A stretch of DNA of 37,305 nt from a virus. The translations under genes were made by a program, and so were the position numbers. The stretch spans positions 1 to 37,305 of the IMG/VR virus record IMGVR_UViG_3300038309_000185. One strand, given 5' to 3'. Below are positions 197 through 37,305 of this stretch, one piece after another (positions within the stretch are counted from its first letter, which is position 1; each line of letters starts with the position of its first letter). Under the pieces are notes generated by a model. That model searched no databases, was not told where the DNA came from, and saw only the letters and a program-made list of their open reading frames with translations.

Positions 197-529
197 TCAA
201 TAATCCCAATCTTGCCAGACTACAACCTTGTTTTTATCATCAAATTGCATAGGATAATATTCCAATATCCCACGTTCTTCCATTTCTGGAAAGATATCTT
301 CATATGTATTTATTATTCTGTCACAGGGTAAACACCAAACAGACGGGATTTCTGCATACGTGCAACCTCTTAAATGGTTTATTTGCCGCTGCCATTCATC
401 AGCATGGAGTTCAACCCCTGAAAACAGATCAACAATAGCATTATGATATAGTTTATCAATACCTTCTTTTTCCAGCATATCCATGAACTCTTGCCCCCCA
501 CTCCAAAAATACTCAGTTGTTTCTTCCAT
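197..529 (-). CDS. Hypothetical early protein (110 aa)
   Basis: I do not recognise the family. The protein is acidic and rich in Glu, Asp and aromatic residues (ends VVVWQDWDY), soluble, with no signal peptide or membrane segment. It has a C-x2-C pair (WCLPCDR) near the middle. The ATG at 529 is chosen because GGAGTGACGAA lies just upstream, the same ribosome-site style as the early gene at 33762-34100 (GGAGTAACGAA). Its leader carries a 12-bp-stem hairpin (548-576), as the early genes at 33.7-36.2 kb do, so it probably belongs to the same early cassette set continued across the window ends. Function unknown; small acidic early phage proteins often act on host targets, but nothing here shows that. 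Confidence 0.7.
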   Translation of the reverse strand: MEETTEYFWSGGQEFMDMLEKEGIDKLYHNAIVDLFSGVELHADEWQRQINHLRGCTYAEIPSVWCLPCDRIINTYEDIFPEMEERGILEYYPMQFDDKNKVVVWQDWDY

Positions 530-547
530 TTCGTCACTCCTTCTCAT

Positions 548-576
548 TCATGGGGCCGGCCTATCCGGCCCCATGA
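548..576 (-). promoter_or_regulatory. Leader hairpin before the 110-aa gene
   Basis: Perfect 12-bp stem (TCATGGGGCCGG with its complement) and a 5-nt loop between the gene ending at 584 and the start at 529. Its position and stem length match the CCATGG hairpins of the 34-36 kb cassettes, but the stem sequence differs. The GGGGCCGG/CCGGCCCC core is the same as in the plus-strand hairpin at 5147-5172. No U-tract follows. Confidence 0.6.
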
Positions 577-583
577 CCCGCTC

Positions 584-766
584 TTACGTCAGGGGTATAA
601 TCACTGCCCATGCCGGCAGCGTGGCCTTCACCTCATCCAGCAGTGCATAGGTAAAAAATATGGGCTCGTCATCCAGCATCAGCTCCAGCCCCGCATCTAT
701 CACTGCGTTTGCTAGGACTTGGATGAGGGCCTCATCCTGGCGCGGAACGTGTATCTCGTACAGCAT
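584..766 (-). CDS. Hypothetical early protein (60 aa)
   Basis: Small acidic protein starting MLYEIHVPRQ. No family recognised and no membrane segment. The ATG at 766 is chosen because AAGGAG lies 7-8 nt upstream; a longer reading from 802 has no such site. The C-terminus is IIPLT, like the PLTA, PLAV and PLTL ends of three genes at 34-36 kb, whose last codons contain the -35 box of the next promoter. Here the corresponding bases (CTGACG) are a degraded version. A degenerate promoter and leader module lies upstream at 785-837. Probably an early gene of the same cassette family; function unknown. Confidence 0.65.
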   Translation of the reverse strand: MLYEIHVPRQDEALIQVLANAVIDAGLELMLDDEPIFFTYALLDEVKATLPAWAVIIPLT

Positions 767-784
767 GTCTATCTCCTTCCGTCC

Positions 785-837
785 ATGGCCAAATGCGACC
801 ATGGGTACAGCCTCGCAGGTTATGGTTAGCGTGTCAA
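785..837 (-). promoter_or_regulatory. Degenerate copy of the early promoter-hairpin module
   Basis: On the minus strand TTGACACGCTAACCATA matches the -35 and spacer of the modules at 34-36 kb. A weaker leader hairpin then follows, formed by two CCATGG sites about 10 nt apart. The -10 box expected 17 nt after TTGACA is poor (GAGGCT), so activity is doubtful. It precedes the 60-aa gene. Confidence 0.5.
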
Positions 838-5146: not shown

Positions 5147-5172
5147 TAAGGGGCCGGGATTCCGGCCCCTTA
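5147..5172 (+). promoter_or_regulatory. Intercistronic hairpin in the virion operon
   Basis: Perfect 11-bp stem TAAGGGGCCGG with a GATT loop in the 51-bp gap between the genes ending at 5136 and starting at 5188. No U-run follows, so it is more likely an RNA-stability or processing element, or a weak attenuator, than a full terminator. It shares the GGGGCCGG/CCGGCCCC core with the hairpin at 548-576. Confidence 0.65.
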
Positions 5173-18519: not shown

Positions 18520-20363
18520 TTTCCCCCTTCATCCGAATATATCTTATTAAGATATTCCGCTCCAGTTGAGAACGCCTTAGCGCGTTCCAGTTTGGCCTTC
18601 TCTTGCATCAACTCAATCTCCGCTTGCGCTTTCGCTATATCTATTGGGCTCATCGGGGGCGTCCCCTGGGGGGCAGGCTGCGCCCGAGCTTGTTCTTTTG
18701 CGACCTCAGCCCGCGCCTTGTTTTGCTCAAATTGTTGCAGCGTTTGTTGTACCCGATCAACCACTTGAGACGGCAATGGCGAGAACCGCAAAAACTCCGC
18801 TATGACCGACGGGGGCACATCCATGTTACCCAGCATGGGTAACATGGGGGCAAGCTCTGCCCATACCCGGCTCTTGAAGGATATTGACTCCGGCGCTTCT
18901 TCCACAATGATATCGTATTCCCTATCAACGTCTCTGAGTACTGTAGTGGCTGCCGCGTAACCTAATCGGTTAAGGACCCCCTCTGGCACAAATGTCCGTA
19001 TAAAATAAATCAATACCCGGCCCAGTGCGATCCTTGCCCACCTAAGATTGTCCATATATTGGCTAAGGATGTTGGCGGTGCTCTCTTTTCGCTCCACTTC
19101 CAACACTCTAGCCTGCTGTCGGTTGGCCATGCCAAGAAACTCCAGGCTTATGCCAGTTACGTCTCGCATAGCCCCATTGGCCAGCCTGAATAATTCCTCG
19201 ATACCTTGCGGGAACGCCGACGGCGACTTTTCCTTGATCTTGTTCAAGCCACCTGGGCGCAGAAAGGTAATGCTATTCGGTTGTGCCCACTCTGCTTCCA
19301 TCCTTCTTACATCATCTACGGCGTCCAGCTCCATGAGCAGCCCGCCCTTACTGTTTGAATTGATGACATGCATCATGCTCGAAAAAAACTTGTTGACGTA
19401 CTGCTGCGGGTCGAGCATAGCCCGCACAAGTCCGTAGTATATATTATCGTTCTTGTCCAGCTTCCCTACGATGGGGATATATGTAAACCCGGATGGGAAC
19501 GGGCACTGTCCTTGCTCCAATATCATGCCGCCCAGATAGAAGGCGCGGTTGTAGACTTTCTTTTTTCTCGCTACGCTACCAGGTACCTTCTGCTCCGCTT
19601 CCACGTATGACCCGTCCGGCTGGAACACGGTATATACTTCCGTGCTTTCCCACCATTGTATTTCCTTAACGCATATCTTATTCTTGCGCTTCTCCCCACC
19701 AGTCGTAGCGCTTTCTTGGTATTTCCACATCTTGTTGGCGTCCAGGGGGCGCACAACCTCATCCAGAACATCAGGGTTGTTGTCGTAATCAATGGATACT
19801 GAGTCTGGCCACGCCTCTTCAACCTCGTCTCGGTCCATCCATCTGTTTCGCACAATGAACCTGGCGTCCTCTCCTGCTGGGCGCTCAGACCTTGGGTCGA
19901 GAAATATATCAAAGGGGGAGATAGCCTCGATTCGTATCTCCCCACCTGGGAATCTATCGTAGTCCATATAAACATGCAGCCAGCCCACGCCCGTGATAAG
20001 CGCGTCCTTAAAAGCATGGGTCTCCTGAAATGGGGAACCGCAACGATCCCGGACCCACCGAATAACTTCGGTTAGCGCCATAGCTGGGGCTTGGTCTTCA
20101 ACCCCACGGGGGACGCATACAATGTCCTGGCGGCTGTTGATCTGATCCCCGATGATGGCGTCTATATACGGAGCGATCTTGTTGAAGGTGATAACTGGGC
20201 GTAGCTGTTCTTCGAGAAAGGCCCGGTCATCCACGTCCCATTGGTCCCCGTCATAGTATTTACGGGAGACCAACGCTTCTTTAGTCCATGCTGGGTAATG
20301 GTCCCGGCACATACCCAGCCAAGTATCAAACTTAGCCTCTAATGTCTTATCGTCTTTGGCCAT
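18516..20363 (-). CDS. Portal protein, P22-like (615 aa)
   Basis: Forms the dodecameric ring through which DNA enters and leaves. The size and pattern suit P22-type portals: KYYDGDQWDVDDRAFLEEQL near the N-terminus, then LRPVITFNKIAPYIDAIIGD, DVTGISLEFLGMANRQQARV near residue 400, and a C-terminal Gln/Ala/Lys-rich coiled coil that could form the barrel. The ATG follows the terminase stop by a few bases. It is followed directly by scaffold. Confidence 0.85.
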   Translation of the reverse strand: MAKDDKTLEAKFDTWLGMCRDHYPAWTKEALVSRKYYDGDQWDVDDRAFLEEQLRPVITFNKIAPYIDAIIGDQINSRQDIVCVPRGVEDQAPAMALTEVIRWVRDRCGSPFQETHAFKDALITGVGWLHVYMDYDRFPGGEIRIEAISPFDIFLDPRSERPAGEDARFIVRNRWMDRDEVEEAWPDSVSIDYDNNPDVLDEVVRPLDANKMWKYQESATTGGEKRKNKICVKEIQWWESTEVYTVFQPDGSYVEAEQKVPGSVARKKKVYNRAFYLGGMILEQGQCPFPSGFTYIPIVGKLDKNDNIYYGLVRAMLDPQQYVNKFFSSMMHVINSNSKGGLLMELDAVDDVRRMEAEWAQPNSITFLRPGGLNKIKEKSPSAFPQGIEELFRLANGAMRDVTGISLEFLGMANRQQARVLEVERKESTANILSQYMDNLRWARIALGRVLIYFIRTFVPEGVLNRLGYAAATTVLRDVDREYDIIVEEAPESISFKSRVWAELAPMLPMLGNMDVPPSVIAEFLRFSPLPSQVVDRVQQTLQQFEQNKARAEVAKEQARAQPAPQGTPPMSPIDIAKAQAEIELMQEKAKLERAKAFSTGAEYLNKIYSDEGGK

Positions 20364-22989: not shown

Positions 22990-23410
22990 TGGCAGCCCCT
23001 TCGGTTAAAGGATGAAGCCTTTCGGCTTCATGAATGAGCTTTTCCGCTGCCGCGATCTCGGCTTCATGTTCCATACCAATATCCAGCCGGTCGATCTTGA
23101 CACGGCAGCGAAACATAAATCTTTCCCCATCCATGATCCTAGGGACGCCCATATGCCGTACCAGGAGCTTATAAAACGCCAAAAACCCCGAGGCGGGGTA
23201 TTGCATCCTATCACAATACCATAGATAGAATCGGTACAACATCATGGGCGAGGTGACGGCATTGGTAACAAGGTCAACCTTGTTCCGCATAAAAGACACT
23301 ACGCCAGAATCTATAGGCGTAAGTTTATAAATGCTAGTGGGGCGTTGCCCCACTAGCTTAGCTAACAACCAGTTTATGTCGTATGCGCCGACTTCTTGGT
23401 TAGGGTTCAT
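22979..23410 (-). CDS. Hypothetical protein (143 aa)
   Basis: Starts MNPNQEVGAYDINWLLAKLV. Mostly helical with many aromatic residues (MMLYRFYLWYCDRMQYPASG) and a last part rich in Glu/Ala. Not recognised. The ATG at 23410 is preferred over a TTG at 23446 that overlaps the preceding gene. The coding DNA contains a perfect 11-bp-stem hairpin (23333-23357) and an 8-bp hairpin with a GAAA loop near the small-terminase start (23012-23031). Its place between replication and packaging genes gives no clear role. Confidence 0.6.
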   Translation of the reverse strand: MNPNQEVGAYDINWLLAKLVGQRPTSIYKLTPIDSGVVSFMRNKVDLVTNAVTSPMMLYRFYLWYCDRMQYPASGFLAFYKLLVRHMGVPRIMDGERFMFRCRVKIDRLDIGMEHEAEIAAAEKLIHEAERLHPLTEGAANGG

Positions 23411-31238: not shown

Positions 31239-33494
31239 GTGCACTCATTAAAGCTCTTCCGCCCCTTGGCATCACAAAACGGTACCCCAATAGACTGGAC
31301 GGAAACACCGGAAGAGCTGGCCACAATATTATCCATACTCGCCAAGCGCAACAAAGACGCCCCAAAAAGCCCCAATTCTACTCCCGGGTACCTGCTGGCT
31401 GATTCACCCGATGACAATGTTGGCCGCTCTGCGCGTGACATTGTAAGCCGGTCCTGGGCCGTGCTGGACGTGGACGGCGTGACCGATGCCGATACGGCTG
31501 CCATCAAGGCGTGGCTCCGTGGCTATCCGTGCGTGGCCCAACGTAGCCTAGGTGGGCAAGGATGGCATCTGCACATACCGCTGGCGACCCCAGCCGGGCC
31601 AGCGGAATACGATGAGATCATCGCTGCGCTGGCCGCCAAGCTGCCGGGGCTGGACGCGGCGGGCTCCCGCTGGGCGCAGACGCTATATATAGGCCGAGGT
31701 GATGCCGAGGTGTGGTGCCCGGATGGTGTGCCATTGTATATCGAAGGCACCGCACATGCTGTGCGTAGCGCCGTGGACCTGGGGGATAGGTTTGCCTGTG
31801 CCCGGGGCAACGGGCGCTGCCGGTTATCCGGTAGCAGGGACGCGCTCCGCATCCGTATTGCTGGCCACCTGGGCCGTAAGCTGGCCGATGGCGAGATTGG
31901 CCAGGGAGACATCGAAACGTTCTGGGCCGCGCATTTCGCTGGGCCGGGGTACACCGCTGAACCCTCGGCAGACTCCAGCCCAGCGCTGATGGTCCGGCGC
32001 ACTATAGCCTTTGCCGAGGGCGACAAAGAGAGCGCCCCGCCGCCGCGTAAACGTGGGCGCCCGGGGAAACAGCGGGACGATCAAGGCGCAGACGCCCGAG
32101 AGGGCGTGCTGGCGGCATGGCGCGAAGAACTGGCCGGGCAGTACTATCGGTGCTCTCACGACGAAGAGATGTTCGTCAGCGCCGCCACAGGGCGCCTCAG
32201 CAGTAGGCGCAAGCTCTGCCAAAGTCTGGCCAGAAAGTTTGATCCTGACGCCGTAGAGCGCCCATTCGACGTGTTTGGCGATATGCTGGCCGTGGGGCTG
32301 GTGGACGACGTGGATATGCGCGGCGTGTTCGACGCGCCCGGGGCCGGGTGGATCGTGGAGCGTGACGGGCGCAGCATGGTCAACCGCTCCGCTCATATTG
32401 TCACACCGTCCAAGCCGCCACCAGGATGGTCCCCGGCGGGACGGTGGGGGCAATGGGTAGGCGCGTTCAGCGCCGAAGCCAAGGCGTTCCTGGGCCACAT
32501 CATAGCGCGGCCATGGGAGAAGCCAAACGTCTGCCTAGTTCTCCAGGGACCAAGCGGCGAAGGCAAGAGTAGCGTGGTGAGCGCCCTGCTCCGCGCCATC
32601 CTGCCGAATCTGCCAGACCATAACGATATCGTAGGCCGGGAGCAGGTATGCCAGCGGTCGCTGCGGGCCGTGACCGGGAGGTTCAATGGTGACACGGCCA
32701 CGAAGTTGGTAGTCTGCCTGGGTGAAGAGGATACCGCCGGGCAGGGCGGGGCCGCCAGACGGGCCGAGAAACTTGAGCAGATCAACATATTGAAAGAGCT
32801 TATCACCGATCCCGAGCTGGCCTATGAGCGCAAAGGGGCCGAGGTGATAAGGATCGAGAACCGCACCCGGTACATCATGACGACCGAGCAATACCTGACC
32901 GATCCCTCGACTAATCTGGCCATTGGTAACCGGCGGTTCCTCCATCAGCCTGTATTCGCTGGGCTCCATCTCGACCCCGCCGGAGCTGATGCGATGTTCG
33001 ATGATATCGCTGCGCACCCTGAATGGTACGCCTGGGCGCTGCTGCAATACTGGGAGCAAGCGCCGCAGGCCGTGCGGGATACGATCCTGCACGGCGTGCG
33101 GCCAAGCGGTGAGGATTTGATTGAGGGCGGGAGTGCGATGGCCTTCGGGCAGGTGATGCGGGACTGCCTGGAAGGGGCGCACGATGGAGAACTGGCCAAC
33201 CCTACCTTACCACAACACAAACTAGGCGGCACGGTACGCTCCAGCATGGGCTACGACGAGGTCAGGGCACTGTGCGGCGAGACCTACGAAATAGGCGGGG
33301 TAGTATATGTGAGGGCGGCGGCGTTCGGCGAGCTGGCCAACGTCTGGTGCGGGAAAATACTACGCGGTAAACAGATTGCGGCGTTCCACGAGGGCATGCA
33401 CGTGGGCGTGGCAAGCGAGATGCTAAAAGTAACCGCCCGGATTGACGGGGCTACCGTCAAACTCCGGGCGGTGTATAGGGTAGGGGCTAGTTAA
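31239..33494 (+). CDS. Primase-helicase: AEP-like primase plus SF3/D5-type helicase (751 aa)
   Basis: Makes primers and unwinds the replication fork. The N-terminal primase shows WAVLDVDGV (Asp77, Asp79) and GGQGWHLHIPL (His110/His112), the acidic and His motifs of archaeo-eukaryotic-type primases. A basic linker with KRGRPGKQR follows at about 270. The C-terminal ATPase has LQGPSGEGKSS (Walker A, 435-445), VVCLGEED (Walker B, about 491-498), and TRYIMTTE as a sensor-like motif, then GNRRFL. GTG at 31239 is preferred, 4 nt after GGAGG; a TTG at 31179 has no site. It is the only plus-strand gene within the minus-strand half and overlaps the convergent Sel1 gene by 8 bp. Confidence 0.82.
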   Translation: MHSLKLFRPLASQNGTPIDWTETPEELATILSILAKRNKDAPKSPNSTPGYLLADSPDDNVGRSARDIVSRSWAVLDVDGVTDADTAAIKAWLRGYPCVAQRSLGGQGWHLHIPLATPAGPAEYDEIIAALAAKLPGLDAAGSRWAQTLYIGRGDAEVWCPDGVPLYIEGTAHAVRSAVDLGDRFACARGNGRCRLSGSRDALRIRIAGHLGRKLADGEIGQGDIETFWAAHFAGPGYTAEPSADSSPALMVRRTIAFAEGDKESAPPPRKRGRPGKQRDDQGADAREGVLAAWREELAGQYYRCSHDEEMFVSAATGRLSSRRKLCQSLARKFDPDAVERPFDVFGDMLAVGLVDDVDMRGVFDAPGAGWIVERDGRSMVNRSAHIVTPSKPPPGWSPAGRWGQWVGAFSAEAKAFLGHIIARPWEKPNVCLVLQGPSGEGKSSVVSALLRAILPNLPDHNDIVGREQVCQRSLRAVTGRFNGDTATKLVVCLGEEDTAGQGGAARRAEKLEQINILKELITDPELAYERKGAEVIRIENRTRYIMTTEQYLTDPSTNLAIGNRRFLHQPVFAGLHLDPAGADAMFDDIAAHPEWYAWALLQYWEQAPQAVRDTILHGVRPSGEDLIEGGSAMAFGQVMRDCLEGAHDGELANPTLPQHKLGGTVRSSMGYDEVRALCGETYEIGGVVYVRAAAFGELANVWCGKILRGKQIAAFHEGMHVGVASEMLKVTARIDGATVKLRAVYRVGAS

Positions 33495-33765
33495 TCGGGG
33501 GCTTGCCCCTGGGCATCCACAGCATAACCGCGCGCCCAGCGTCCCGTGGTACTCCATAGCCTGCCGCGTACATCACGCCTAGGCTATGTTCAGCGGCCGC
33601 ATGCCCCTGCTTGGCCGCCTTGCGTAGCCAGTCAACCGCTTGGGCCGCGTCACGCGGTACGCCATGCCCTATGGCGTACATTACGCCAAGCTCATATTGG
33701 GCCGCCGCATGCCCATTAGCAGCGGCGGCCAGGACAGGTTCAGCCCATTTCTTAATTTCGATCAT
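33487..33765 (-). CDS. Sel1-repeat protein, short (92 aa)
   Basis: Two Sel1-type repeats: AAAQYELGVMYAIGHGVPRD through AVDWLRKAAKQGH, then AAAEHSLGVMYAAGYGVPRD. Sel1 repeats form alpha-solenoids that bind proteins. It is far shorter than most Sel1 proteins, so it may be a peptide-binding adaptor or work with its paralogues at 34172 and 35675. The ATG at 33765 overlaps the previous stop (ATGA). It has no promoter module of its own and is coupled to the 112-aa gene upstream. Confidence 0.75.
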   Translation of the reverse strand: MIEIKKWAEPVLAAAANGHAAAQYELGVMYAIGHGVPRDAAQAVDWLRKAAKQGHAAAEHSLGVMYAAGYGVPRDAGRAVMLWMPRGKPPIN

Positions 33766-34100
33766 TCCAAACCCACTACCGCACAGCCGCATGACGTAAT
33801 ATGGATTACAGCATCATAGTACCAATTGGGATTAACGGCGGAATCTATGTTATCTCTAACATAGGCGGCTAGTTTTGATGTATCGTCAATCGCCGGGAGC
33901 CCTACCTTATCCAAAAACTCATAGGGGCCTAACTCTAAAAAATTGCTTCGGATAACTTCCGGGGTAACACCAAGATTCCCGCCCATATCCCGTAAATAAT
34001 CATACAACGCCGCTGCCCCTTCAACGGACCAGTCATCACCATCGCTGGTGATAATATCGTGAAACTCTTCGGGGGTAAGCTTCCAAACTGCTATGCTCAT
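33762..34100 (-). CDS. Conserved small early protein, paralogue of the 36.3-kb gene (112 aa)
   Basis: Starts MSIAVWKLTPEEFHDIITSD, continuing GDDWSVEGAAALYDYLRDMG. This pattern is shared with the protein at 36258-36632 (FYQIITSHGDQWTHEGAQAL) and with many small phage and bacterial proteins of unknown function. Acidic, with two Cys near the C-terminus (ITSCGCAVVG). The ATG has GGAGTAACGAA upstream. It lies behind the module at 34122-34183, whose hairpin loop is inverted relative to the others. Confidence 0.7.
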   Translation of the reverse strand: MSIAVWKLTPEEFHDIITSDGDDWSVEGAAALYDYLRDMGGNLGVTPEVIRSNFLELGPYEFLDKVGLPAIDDTSKLAAYVRDNIDSAVNPNWYYDAVIHITSCGCAVVGLE

Positions 34101-34121
34101 TTCGTTACTCCTTTGCCCTTG

Positions 34122-34183
34122 CCCATGGTCGGCAATCACGCCGACCATGGGGATAGGTTACTGTGATATGGCTAGAGTGTTAA
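34122..34183 (-). promoter_or_regulatory. Early module D: promoter plus leader hairpin (inverted loop)
   Basis: Minus strand: TTAACA (34178-34183), 17-bp spacer, TAACCT (34155-34160). A 12-bp-stem hairpin follows (34122-34151) with CCCATGGTCGGC as its left arm on the plus strand. The plus-strand loop is AATCAC, the reverse complement of the GTGATT in modules A-C. The dyad around -10 seen in A-C is weaker here. It drives the 112-aa gene and the short Sel1 gene. The -35 box lies in the last codons of the gene at 34172-34693. Confidence 0.8.
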
Positions 34184-34693
34184 AGGCCCAATCTGCGGCG
34201 GGCGCGGGCGCAGGGCATTGGCCTGCATGCGCCAATGATGCGCCTGATTGAAATCCTGCGACACGCCATGCCCGGCTTCATACAATTGGGCCAGCCTGGC
34301 GCACGCGGCGTGGTACCCATTGCCCGCCGCCGCCCGGTACCATTGCACCGCCCTGGAATAGTCTTGCGGTACACCATCACCTCTGGCATAGAGCCCCGCT
34401 AGCGCATACTGCGCCAGGGCATGGCGCTGTTCTGCGGCCAAGCGGTACATGTGCGCAGCTTCTGCATAGTCTTGCGGTACGCATGAGCCCGCATGGTACG
34501 CTACGCCTAGCGTGTACTGTGCATCTGCGTTGCCATGCGCTGCTGCGCTGCGCAACAAGGGGATAGCCTTCTTCCAATTACGCCTAACGCCTTCCCCACC
34601 GTACAGATATGCCCGGCCTAGTTTGTATTGGGCAACGACATTACCACGCGCGGCATTGTGTTCAAGAGATACGATTGTTGCTGATTTTTTCAC
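34172..34693 (-). CDS. Sel1-repeat protein, four repeats (173 aa)
   Basis: Four to five Sel1 repeats (ARGNVVAQYKLGRAYLYGGE, HGNADAQYTLGVAYHAGSCV, RHALAQYALAGLYARGDGVP, GYHAACARLAQLYEAGHGVS), with the usual 36-residue spacing. No signal peptide, so probably cytoplasmic, unlike many bacterial Sel1 proteins. GTG start with GAGGAG upstream. It ends GPLTL because the next promoter's -35 lies in the 3' end. Function unknown; a protein-binding role against host factors is possible. Confidence 0.85.
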   Translation of the reverse strand: MKKSATIVSLEHNAARGNVVAQYKLGRAYLYGGEGVRRNWKKAIPLLRSAAAHGNADAQYTLGVAYHAGSCVPQDYAEAAHMYRLAAEQRHALAQYALAGLYARGDGVPQDYSRAVQWYRAAAGNGYHAACARLAQLYEAGHGVSQDFNQAHHWRMQANALRPRPPQIGPLTL

Positions 34694-34716
34694 TTCATTA
34701 CTCCTCTACTTGCTTG

Positions 34717-34777
34717 CCCATGGTCGGCGTGATTGCCGACCATGGGACAGTTTACTGTGATATGGTTATACTGCCAA
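34717..34777 (-). promoter_or_regulatory. Early module C: promoter, palindrome and leader hairpin
   Basis: Minus strand: TTGGCA (34772-34777), 17-bp spacer, TAAACT (34749-34754) inside the palindrome ACAGTAAACTGT (34747-34758). The 12-bp-stem hairpin follows (34717-34746), loop GTGATT on the plus strand. It precedes the four-repeat Sel1 gene. The -35 is inside the last codons of the clamp-like gene. Confidence 0.85.
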
Positions 34778-35605
34778 GGGCATGACCACCGCGACAACGC
34801 GGTAGTCTTCGCTGGCCAACACCAGCTTCCCCAATTTGGTTTGGGACAACTTAACCTGCCCCTTAGGGCCAAGCCATTTTAGCGCGCACCTAAGTAATTT
34901 GAGGTCAACGTGCGCGTCAATGGCCGCGCCGCTATCTGCGGCCATGACCTGTAGGGTATGGGTTCCCCCGCCGTCAACAGACACCGACAGCGCCCTGCCA
35001 TCCATCCGTAGCCTAGCATACCCACGATCAGGCGGCACACGCAGGGCCTTAGCGGTCAGTGTGACACCCGGAAGCGGGCCACACAGAACATCAGGAATAG
35101 CATCCCGCCAGTGCGGCAGTCGCTGTGTTTGAGCCTCCACATGAATGGACCATGCCTCCCCTTGCGCCAGGTGCATACGCCCGGCATCGTCATGTACGTT
35201 AACAGGCGCGTTGCCGCAAAATTGACTAAGCGCCGCCGCCCAATGCATGGCAGATACCGGCAGTTCATGGTGCGCCCCCCGGGCCGAATATATCTCGTAC
35301 GGGGACGCGCCATCGGTAGTCATCACCATTATGTACCCATTCGTTATTACGTGAGCATCGCCCTTGGACGACTGGTTAAGGATATAGGGGAATCGTATAG
35401 TAGCAAGCTCCCCCTCAATTGTTGCCCCAATTTTCCGCGCCACGGCCAAAAATTGACCCGGTGTCCACGCATGCAGGAATTGCGCCCCCCGGGGCAAGGC
35501 GGGCATGGCCGCCGTGATTGATATTTCCAAGGGCTTTACTTCTTTTATTTTGTTAGCGGCCATGACCAGGTCGACCAGATTGTCCGGATTGATGATTATT
35601 TCCAC
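34766..35605 (-). CDS. Sliding-clamp-like protein (279 aa)
   Basis: Resembles the C-terminal two domains of bacterial beta clamp (DnaN). One segment WRDAIPDVLCGPLPGVTLTA stands where DnaN has its F-P-D-Y ... P linker. A last domain with AHVDLKLLRCALKWLG, then GQVKLSQTKLGKLVLASEDY and the terminal VVAVVMPL matches the DnaN ending (yl ... MP-hydrophobic). At 279 aa it is shorter than DnaN (about 366), so it may have a reduced first domain or form a trimer like T4 gp45. No clamp loader is seen. GTG start after GGGAG; alternative functions cannot be excluded. Confidence 0.5.
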   Translation of the reverse strand: MEIIINPDNLVDLVMAANKIKEVKPLEISITAAMPALPRGAQFLHAWTPGQFLAVARKIGATIEGELATIRFPYILNQSSKGDAHVITNGYIMVMTTDGASPYEIYSARGAHHELPVSAMHWAAALSQFCGNAPVNVHDDAGRMHLAQGEAWSIHVEAQTQRLPHWRDAIPDVLCGPLPGVTLTAKALRVPPDRGYARLRMDGRALSVSVDGGGTHTLQVMAADSGAAIDAHVDLKLLRCALKWLGPKGQVKLSQTKLGKLVLASEDYRVVAVVMPLAV

Positions 35606-35625
35606 GTCATTTACTCCCTTACTTG

Positions 35626-35686
35626 CCCATGGTCGGCGTGATTGCCGACCATGGGACAGTTTACTGTGATATGGTTACGCTGTCAA
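35626..35686 (-). promoter_or_regulatory. Early module B: promoter, palindrome and leader hairpin
   Basis: Minus strand: TTGACA (35681-35686), 17-bp spacer, TAAACT (35658-35663) inside ACAGTAAACTGT (35656-35667), then the 12-bp-stem hairpin (35626-35655). It drives the clamp-like gene. The -35 lies in the last codons (Leu-Thr-Ala-stop) of the gene at 35675-36175. Confidence 0.87.
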
Positions 35687-36175
35687 GGGCACAAAAGGAT
35701 CGCGCCGCATGGCAATTTCTAATCCAGCTTCTGCCGCTGCACGGGCCGAGTCGCACCATAAGGCATTCCCTAGCCAAAACCTGGCCATCTGCATGCAGAT
35801 AGGCATGGCATCGCATCCATTGAGGTATAGCAGTCCCAGGTCAAGCGCGGCACCGGCGTGCCCATTTTCAGCGGCGGCTTTAAGCCAGTTTGCCGCCTGG
35901 CGCTGGTCCCTTGGTACGCCAAGCCCCAACATATAGCAGTGCCCCAATTCGTACTGCGCGGGCGGGGACTCTCGCTCTGCGGCGCGGGCGAACCATTTCG
36001 CCGCTTCTTTCCAATCAACTCGTTGCTGTGAATAATACCGCCCCACCTCATACTGCGCCGCGTGGTGCCCCGCTTCAGCGATTGGCAGCAATTTATCCAA
36101 AGCCGGGCGATGCCATCCCTTAGCGATAAGCTTGATAGCTTCCCTGTATTCAGCATCCATAGTTAGTTCGTCCAT
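35675..36175 (-). CDS. Sel1-repeat protein, three repeats (166 aa)
   Basis: Repeats HHAAQYEVGRYYSQQRVDWK, SPPAQYELGHCYMLGLGVPRD and GHAGAALDLGLLYLNGCD, preceded by a helical cap (MDAEYREAIKLIAKGWHRPA) and followed by a non-repeat end (RDPFVPLTA). Cytoplasmic, no signal peptide. GGAG lies 9 nt before the ATG. It is expressed from module A. Function unknown; a third Sel1 protein in one phage suggests diversification of a binding surface. Confidence 0.82.
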   Translation of the reverse strand: MDELTMDAEYREAIKLIAKGWHRPALDKLLPIAEAGHHAAQYEVGRYYSQQRVDWKEAAKWFARAAERESPPAQYELGHCYMLGLGVPRDQRQAANWLKAAAENGHAGAALDLGLLYLNGCDAMPICMQMARFWLGNALWCDSARAAAEAGLEIAMRRDPFVPLTA

Positions 36176-36199
36176 TCGTATTTACTCCATTCTTACTCG

Positions 36200-36261
36200 C
36201 CCATGGTCGGCGTGATTGCCGACCATGGGGACAGTTTACTGTGATATGGTTAGCGTGTCAA
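36200..36261 (-). promoter_or_regulatory. Early module A: promoter, palindrome and leader hairpin
   Basis: Minus strand: TTGACA (36256-36261), 17-bp spacer, TAAACT (36233-36238) inside ACAGTAAACTGT (36231-36242), then the 12-bp-stem hairpin (36200-36229). The stop codon of the upstream gene (36258-36260) overlaps the -35 box. It drives the three-repeat Sel1 gene. Confidence 0.87.
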
Positions 36262-36632
36262 ATGTTTCGAACCAAGACTTTACCATTGCCCAGGAAGGCG
36301 ATTACTGCGTCATCAAGCCAATATGGGTTTCCCGCCGTTTCCACGCGTGCCCTGAGGTAGTCTTCAGGGGAGTCTGCAAACTCTTCCCTTTCTTCGTCGG
36401 TTTCTGGCTCTGGCAAGTCCATAAACTGAAAGACTTCATCAAGGTCAATCTCCGAAAAGTCGCACCGAATGCCTACCGCTTCAATTTCGATATTCTCATC
36501 ACAAGACTCTGCTAATTCATCAAGGTATTCAAAAAGCGCTTGCGCCCCTTCGTGGGTCCATTGATCCCCATGGCTTGTGATGATTTGATAAAACTGACCG
36601 AATGTGCCTACCGTCTGAACTAATGCACCCAT
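36258..36632 (-). CDS. Conserved small early protein, paralogue of the 33.8-kb gene (124 aa)
   Basis: Starts MGALVQTVGTFGQFYQIITS, followed by HGDQWTHEGAQALFEYLDEL and IEIEAVGIRCDFSEIDLDEV. Very acidic. The same F-x-x-I-I-T-x-x-G-D-x-W-x-x-E-G-A-x-A-L pattern is in the 112-aa protein at 33762-34100. I know this pattern from a broad family of phage and bacterial hypothetical proteins. Acidity and early position allow a DNA-mimic or host-inhibitor role, which is speculative. The ATG has AGGAGT upstream. Confidence 0.7.
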   Translation of the reverse strand: MGALVQTVGTFGQFYQIITSHGDQWTHEGAQALFEYLDELAESCDENIEIEAVGIRCDFSEIDLDEVFQFMDLPEPETDEEREEFADSPEDYLRARVETAGNPYWLDDAVIAFLGNGKVLVRNI

Positions 36633-36680
36633 TGTATTTACTCCTATAATAAGCACTGGCCCTCATTAGCCAGCGGTTAC

Positions 36681-36709
36681 AGAATAGGGCATTGTGGTTA
36701 TCGTGTCAA
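36681..36709 (-). promoter_or_regulatory. Sigma70-like promoter of the first early gene
   Basis: Minus strand: TTGACA (36704-36709), 17-bp spacer starting CGATAACCA, TATTCT (36681-36686; 5 of 6 to consensus). Its spacer start is close to the CGCTAACCA of module A. The ACAGTAAACTGT dyad is absent, so this promoter may be free of the control shared by A-C. It drives the 124-aa gene next to the origin. Confidence 0.8.
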
Positions 36710-37213
36710 CTAGGCAAAAAATATACAGGCAGCATGTTTCCGGTGTTACCAGTTGCGCGAAGAAAATTGAGCCACGCGCGAAAAATGCAACTGCTGGAAT
36801 TGCGCGAGCGTTACCAGTTGGGCGCGTTACCAGTTGGGCGCGGTGAACTGGTAACAGGGTGCTAACCATATCCCTACCGCGCGAGCCCTTGCGGCGCGTG
36901 CATTGCGTGGTAGGGGGATTACGTGTAAATCCTGTTACCAGTTGAGCGCGGTTAACAGCGCGCGCGTAATTAAATAATGCCGCGCGTAAAATTGCGCGCG
37001 CGGCGTGCTCCTTTATTATTTATTTACTTATATATATTTTTTTATGTTGAACTGGTAACAAAATATAATAAACACAATATAAGGATGGTAGAAAGGCAAT
37101 AGAATCAAGGGGTTAGCAGCAGATATATGGTTAACAGCAACTGGTAATGCAACCGGCAACAACTGGTAATTATTGCGCAAGAACTGGTAACAGGCGCCGG
37201 AACTGGTAACAAC
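36710..37213. other. Probable replication origin: iterons and AT-rich DNA
   Basis: No gene. Ten copies of a 10-bp iteron are present. GTTACCAGTT lies at 36745, 36810, 36826 and 36934. The reverse orientation AACTGGTAA[CT] lies at 36846, 37050, 37139, 37161, 37182 and 37201. Eight copies are exact, two end in T. Most left copies point one way and right copies the other, around an AT-rich tract (36961-37050) that contains a poly-T run and TATATATA. This iteron plus melting-region layout is typical of initiator-bound origins. GC-rich CGCGCG blocks alternate with the iterons. Confidence 0.75.
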
Positions 37214-37221
37214 GTGCTGCT

Positions 37222-37305
37222 GAGGGGCCTGGCGCGGATGCTGGTGCTGCTGAGGGGCCTGGCGCGGATGCTGGTGCTGCTGAGGGGCCTGGCGCGGATG
37301 CTGGT
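37222..37305. repeat. 30-bp tandem repeat, right end (2 full units plus 24 bp)
   Basis: Units at 37222-37251 and 37252-37281, and 24 bp of a third unit at the window edge; identical to the units at 1-150. Direct joining of the two window ends would give one unit shortened by 6 bp, so the true copy number is probably unresolved. Confidence 0.95.

Follow-up and report, generated by a model that had tools for sequence, protein, structure and literature searches.

Promoter and hairpin-leader modules repeated before genes of a 37-kb phage genome with a podovirus-type portal

Four homologous modules, each consisting of a promoter, a stem-loop and a ribosome-binding site, stand directly before genes on the minus strand of a phage genome, and two further promoters of the same genome carry stem-loops of different sequence at the same spot. 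We propose, with middling confidence, that these are copies of a self-contained expression module whose hairpin caps the 5' end of each mRNA and thereby insulates short mRNAs. A unit of about 85-90 bp, composed of a host-type sigma-70 promoter, a stem-loop at the predicted start and the motif GGAGTAA, would have been copied within the genome, and each copy would make the gene behind it an independent transcription and translation unit. The 5'-terminal stem-loop would protect a short mRNA from 5'-end-dependent decay. It would also give the leader the same structure, and hence the same open ribosome site, before any gene.

The window, that is, the whole stretch of DNA analyzed, comprises 37,305 bases and is an entire IMG/VR virus record. 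A 30-bp tandem repeat, GTGCTGCTGAGGGGCCTGGCGCGGATGCTG, is present at either end (1-150 and 37214-37305), so that the genome is probably circular or has terminal redundancy. Its genes encode a podovirus-type portal (phrog_156), a terminase, a PolA-type polymerase and a primase-like protein, as well as a helicase, an exonuclease, an endolysin and a DNA methyltransferase. Genes were called by hand as open reading frames, in this one genome only. In this hand-made list the gene junctions outside the modules mostly overlap or abut and gaps of more than 40 nt are few. The early timing of the module genes is assumed from their position and promoter type. Adjoining the first module, the non-coding stretch 36740-37215 harbors ten TTACCAGTT/AACTGGTAA motifs that face either way; two of them form a 10-bp inverted pair (36826-36855). 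The stretch resembles an iteron region of the origin or partition type. Hairpins also occur elsewhere in the genome. A perfect 13-bp hairpin at 155-184, GCGGCTATCCAGTGATCACTGGATAGCCGC, directly follows gene 197-529 and is a possible terminator. An 11-bp hairpin on the plus strand (5147-5172, TAAGGGGCCGGGATTCCGGCCCCTTA) is located between two genes of the plus-strand block and has GGGGCCGG in common with the leader hairpin at 548-576. Perfect hairpins are even found within coding genes (12 bp at 18821-18847, 11 bp at 23333-23357), well above what is expected by chance for the genome. The modules and the genes behind them are as follows.

764..837, minus strand: module M1, TTGACA-17-GAGGCT (weak -10), ribosome site AGGAG, ATG at 766
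783-804, minus strand: M1 hairpin, CCATGGTC-GCATTT-GGCCATGG, one G-U pair
584..766, minus strand: small gene behind M1, 60 aa, no family
527..576, minus strand: module M2, leader hairpin and ribosome site without recognisable promoter, preceding gene 197-529
548-576, minus strand: M2 hairpin, 12-bp stem, 5-nt loop
36630..36709, minus strand: module M3, TTGACA-17-TATTCT, ribosome site AGGAGTAA, ATG start
36654-36675, minus strand: M3 hairpin, CGCTGGCT-AATGAG-GGCCAGTG, two G-U pairs
36258..36632, minus strand: gene A, 124 aa, match to phrog_9974 (function unknown), TGA stop inside the next -35
36173..36261, minus strand: module M4 (A of the sequence-only reading), TTGACA-17-TAAACT, hairpin 36200-36229, GGAGTAA, ATG
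35675..36175, minus strand: Sel1-repeat gene S1, 166 aa, TAA stop within TAACCATA of the next promoter
35603..35686, minus strand: module M5 (formerly B), TTGACA-17-TAAACT, hairpin 35626-35655, GGAGTAA, GTG
34766..35605, minus strand: 279-aa gene, no family match, TAA stop within TAACCATA of the next promoter
34691..34777, minus strand: module M6 (formerly C), TTGGCA-17-TAAACT, hairpin 34717-34746, GGAGTAA, GTG
34172..34693, minus strand: Sel1-repeat gene S2, 173 aa, TAG stop within TAGCCATA of the next promoter
34098..34183, minus strand: module M7 (formerly D), TTAACA-17-TAACCT (weak), GGAGTAA, ATG
34122-34151, minus strand: M7 hairpin, same stem, inverted loop
33762..34100, minus strand: gene D, 112 aa, paralogue of gene A (34% identity)
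33487..33765, minus strand: Sel1-repeat gene S3, 92 aa, ATGA overlap with gene D, no module between them

The sequence-only reading had described four minus-strand modules of common layout, and all elements that it named are present there. However, the promoter modules number six, with -35 positions at 36709 (M3), 36261 (M4), 35686 (M5), 34777 (M6), 34183 (M7) and 837 (M1). Position 36709, at which the previously described interval ends, is the -35 of M3, whose hairpin differs. A TTGACA-NNN-TAACCA core at 36709 and 837 matches the promoter motif of M4-M7, and this motif is all that M1 and M3 share with the latter. The assignment of one gene to each module also needs correction, as M7 precedes two overlapping genes (33762-34100 and 33487-33765). 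The spacer between the -35 and -10 boxes measures 17 nt throughout M4-M7, and the -10 is TAAACT in M4-M6 and TAACCT in M7. Two promoters are weak, scoring 8/12 in M7, which is missing from the computed promoter listing, and by eye 8/12 in M1 (837).

The sequence supports the view that self-contained promoter and leader units are repeated before genes, and homology stops sharply at the module edges. The best pair of modules is 95% identical over 74 nt, whereas ungapped identity outside the M4-M7 modules is 0.15-0.29, the level of chance. As copies, M4-M7 represent little more than one independent case. The genes served by the modules are unrelated or distant paralogues, such as A and D or the Sel1-repeat genes S1, S2 and S3. 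For the 279-aa protein, searches of Pfam, NCBIfam and PDB sequences gave no family, and the predicted structure (mean pLDDT 38.9) was too poor for comparison; its end, VVMPLAV, bears a faint resemblance to the C-terminal end of sliding clamps from bacteria. Four upstream genes have their stop codons inside the next promoter, three of them in the TAACCATA motif (TAA, TAA, TAG) and one, a TGA, in TTGACA. The -35 region encodes the last residues of three upstream genes (PLTA, PLAV and PLTL). A module lies between genes A and S1, whereas the paralogous genes D and S3 overlap by ATGA without one. Thus the module has spread or been lost independently of the genes.

These features also bear on the possibility that the near-identical modules are recombination joints, i.e. 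short homology patches for gain, loss and swapping of early-gene cassettes, with the hairpin as the crossover (e.g. via cruciforms or template switching). Sharp homology borders beside unrelated flanking genes, the occurrence of paralogues A/D and S1/S2/S3 behind different modules and the contrast between A-S1 and D-S3 would all be explained in this way, as would the loop of M7, which is an exact inversion of the other loops. Moreover, upstream stops inside the module would permit a clean exchange of genes. The borders and the placement of the paralogues would, however, agree with copying as well as with recombination. Homogenised regulatory repeats need not be joints, and homology needs no hairpin. 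M1 and M3 share too little sequence for recombination with M4-M7, and no exchange was seen, as no module-bearing relative was found in the collections scanned. We regard a role as recombination joint as plausible but give it a low probability.

The collections scanned yielded no relative that carries the module. Among 50,697 phage records there was no nucleotide relative of the genome, and the best portal match was 36% identical. No module-bearing relative was recovered with the hairpin pattern, the promoter combined with CATGG, the 279-aa gene, the primase or the polymerase. The promoter alone was found at 21 loci, most of them in other contexts and none in a module-bearing relative. Three related viral contigs (L032, L041 and L050) contain TTGACACGTTAACCATA and a TATTTT-like -10 region, in one copy each, with a 13-bp stem about 13 nt past the -10 position. 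A distant blastn search with one module against phages and plasmids returned chance-level matches only. The portal relative L006 (56-58% identity) is a 7.5-kb fragment without the module region, and other portal relatives are distant.

The hairpins of M4-M7 have the form CCCATGGTCGGC-N6-GCCGACCATGGG (36200-36229, 35626-35655, 34717-34746 and 34122-34151), with a perfect 12-bp stem that is identical in all four. With at most one mismatch, CCCATGGTCGGC has eight matches in the window compared to 0.33 expected, and all eight lie in these hairpins. Perfect stems of at least 11 bp are expected about 0.1 times per window. The loop is AATCAC in M4-M6 and its exact inverse, GTGATT, in M7, which would fit template switching or inversion at the palindrome and argues against a sequence-specific function of the loop. 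M1 and M3 form an 8-bp stem with a 6-nt loop at the same spot, from other stem sequences and with the use of G-U pairs. Each of the six promoters is followed, 3-6 nt past its -10, by a stem of 8 bp or more, and thus the predicted mRNA begins with the hairpin; stems of at least 8 bp occur at about 1.5% of genome positions by chance. A start 6-7 nt after the -10 would leave a stem of 6-11 bp at the 5' end of the RNA, and a canonical start could lie 1-4 nt inside the 5' arm, with a shorter stem. Folding z-scores of the strong-hairpin leaders were -4.85, -4.67 and -5.26, those of M1 (-2.36) and M3 (-1.56) were modest. Support for the latter two therefore comes from position as well as energy. As DNA palindromes the M1 and M3 hairpins are imperfect, and their G-U pairs favor an RNA hairpin over a DNA palindrome. 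The suggestion that the hairpin acts at the RNA level is strengthened by these two modules, which despite different stems still pair at the same spot via G-U.

Intrinsic terminators were considered and rejected for M4-M7, whose hairpins have no U tract and do not resemble terminators; the M3 hairpin, followed by a T-rich stretch, is terminator-like. The Shine-Dalgarno sequence is located after the stem and is not covered by the hairpin. In folds that include 20 nt of coding sequence it is fully open in M4, M6 and M7; in M1, M3 and M5 part of it pairs. GGAGTAA occurs six times on the minus strand, and five of these occurrences lie in modules, at five of the six module starts. A leaderless upstream reading frame starting from the hairpin ATG was likewise rejected: on visual inspection it is in frame with the main gene in M1 and M7, stops at GGAG-TAA in M4 and M5 and overlaps the start in M6, so that no conserved coupling is apparent.

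The leader hairpin might instead serve RNA-level regulation, as a binding site or attenuator that lets a protein of the phage or the host tune all these genes jointly. Its position is the same in six modules, its stem is perfectly conserved in four, and the M3 hairpin has a T-rich tail. However, M7 has an inverted loop and M1, M2 and M3 have loops of other sequence, which makes a sequence-specific loop binder unlikely. The strong hairpins lack a U tract, the Shine-Dalgarno sequence stays uncovered and Rfam contains no match for the hairpin. We consider such regulation quite improbable. Very little probability is also given to the view that the modules are a by-product of duplication, in which repeat copies of an ordinary promoter carry along a hairpin without special role. 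M4-M7 are indeed recent copies, and the genome has other strong hairpins, some within genes, but none of the four copies has a change in the stem, even though M7 has diverged in its other parts, and M1 and M3 carry independent stems at the corresponding position. Finally, we consider it highly improbable that a repressor silences all cassettes from a DNA operator, which would be the ACAGTAAACTGT dyad that covers the -10 or else the palindrome of 30 bp at +1. Three or four promoters do have symmetric DNA centered on the -10 or shortly after it. However, the dyad (5-bp arms, AA center) is confined to M4-M6, copies that are about 95% identical, is broken in M7 (ACAGTAACCTAT) and absent from M1 and M3, its pattern (up to three mismatches) has 28 matches compared to 17 expected, the M1 and M3 hairpins are imperfect palindromes and no regulator- or repressor-like gene was found among the proteins scanned. 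The single regulator previously suggested from the -10 palindrome thus has a weak foundation.

For the proposed capping of mRNAs by a copied module, we infer from the sequence functional promoters, early expression, a transcription start at the hairpin and a stabilising or insulating effect of the hairpin on the mRNA. Several observations count against this reading. In M2 the hairpin comes without a promoter and is thus not linked to a transcription start. The -10 boxes of M7 and M1 are weak, strong hairpins occur within genes (18821 and 23333), and the hairpin of M3 resembles a terminator.

N4-type hairpin promoters likewise comprise several early phage promoters with hairpins, but their hairpin precedes the start and is used by a virion RNA polymerase. 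This type was rejected here, as no such polymerase was seen and a hairpin downstream of the promoter is in the wrong position. A parallel for the proposed function is offered by the 5'-terminal stem-loops that stabilise E. coli mRNAs, e.g. ompA and papA, as cited in PMC3997798. In both cases a stem-loop at or beside the 5' end of the mRNA, here predicted from the -10 spacing, is followed by an open ribosome site. The E. coli examples are single genes with measured effects, whereas the present case is a repeated phage module and a prediction.

Units of a promoter and an inverted repeat before small non-structural genes are already known as PeSL and ESAS; the geometry found here differs from both. 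The promoter-early stem-loops (PeSL) of T4-type phages (Arbiol 2010, Comeau 2014) have been proposed as mediators of gene shuffling, according to PMC4503421. They resemble the present modules in combining a sigma-70 early promoter with a stem-loop in short gaps between small genes and in the presence of near-identical copies before unrelated genes; the sigma-70-type promoter in the gene gaps here is TTGACA-17-TAAACT or TATTCT. In the RB49 gaps, of which we read the sequence, the stem-loop mostly straddles the -10, e.g. GGGAGTAT-GCTATA-ATACTCCC, or precedes the promoter. It therefore cannot form in the promoter's own transcript, but can terminate the upstream gene. By contrast, the hairpin described here lies wholly downstream of the -10, at the predicted 5' end of the mRNA, and M4-M7 lack a U tract. 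The phage is also not T4-like, with 37 kb, a portal of phrog_156 and a PolA-type polymerase.

SAS/ESAS elements were described in Cluster K mycobacteriophages (PMC3203893, PMC11373665), and similar repeats in Microbacterium phages (PMC7302621). They precede a subset of non-structural genes. Like the present modules, they are repeated within the genome and consist of a promoter with an inverted repeat, followed by an unusually conserved ribosome-site motif. Such an extended motif recurs here as GGAGTAA, which differs in sequence from GGGATAGGAGCCC. In the Adephagia ESAS, as read from the sequence, 17-bp arms contain the -35 (TGTTGACATGCATACAG) and the -10 and thus span the promoter, whereas the hairpin here begins after the -10 and its arms include neither box. 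We suggest only tentatively that the modules are a third, independently evolved phage 'plug-in' module, made up of a promoter, a 5'-capping hairpin, a ribosome site and an upstream stop built into the promoter. A gene landing between two such modules would at once be insulated, transcribed and translated. If this is right, another phage lineage would join the short list of those with copied promoter/hairpin modules at early genes, and the hairpin could occupy three different places relative to the promoter. This would point to independent and repeated evolution of gene-cassette modularity and would offer a small natural part with which to test how a hairpin at the 5' end holds expression constant across genes.
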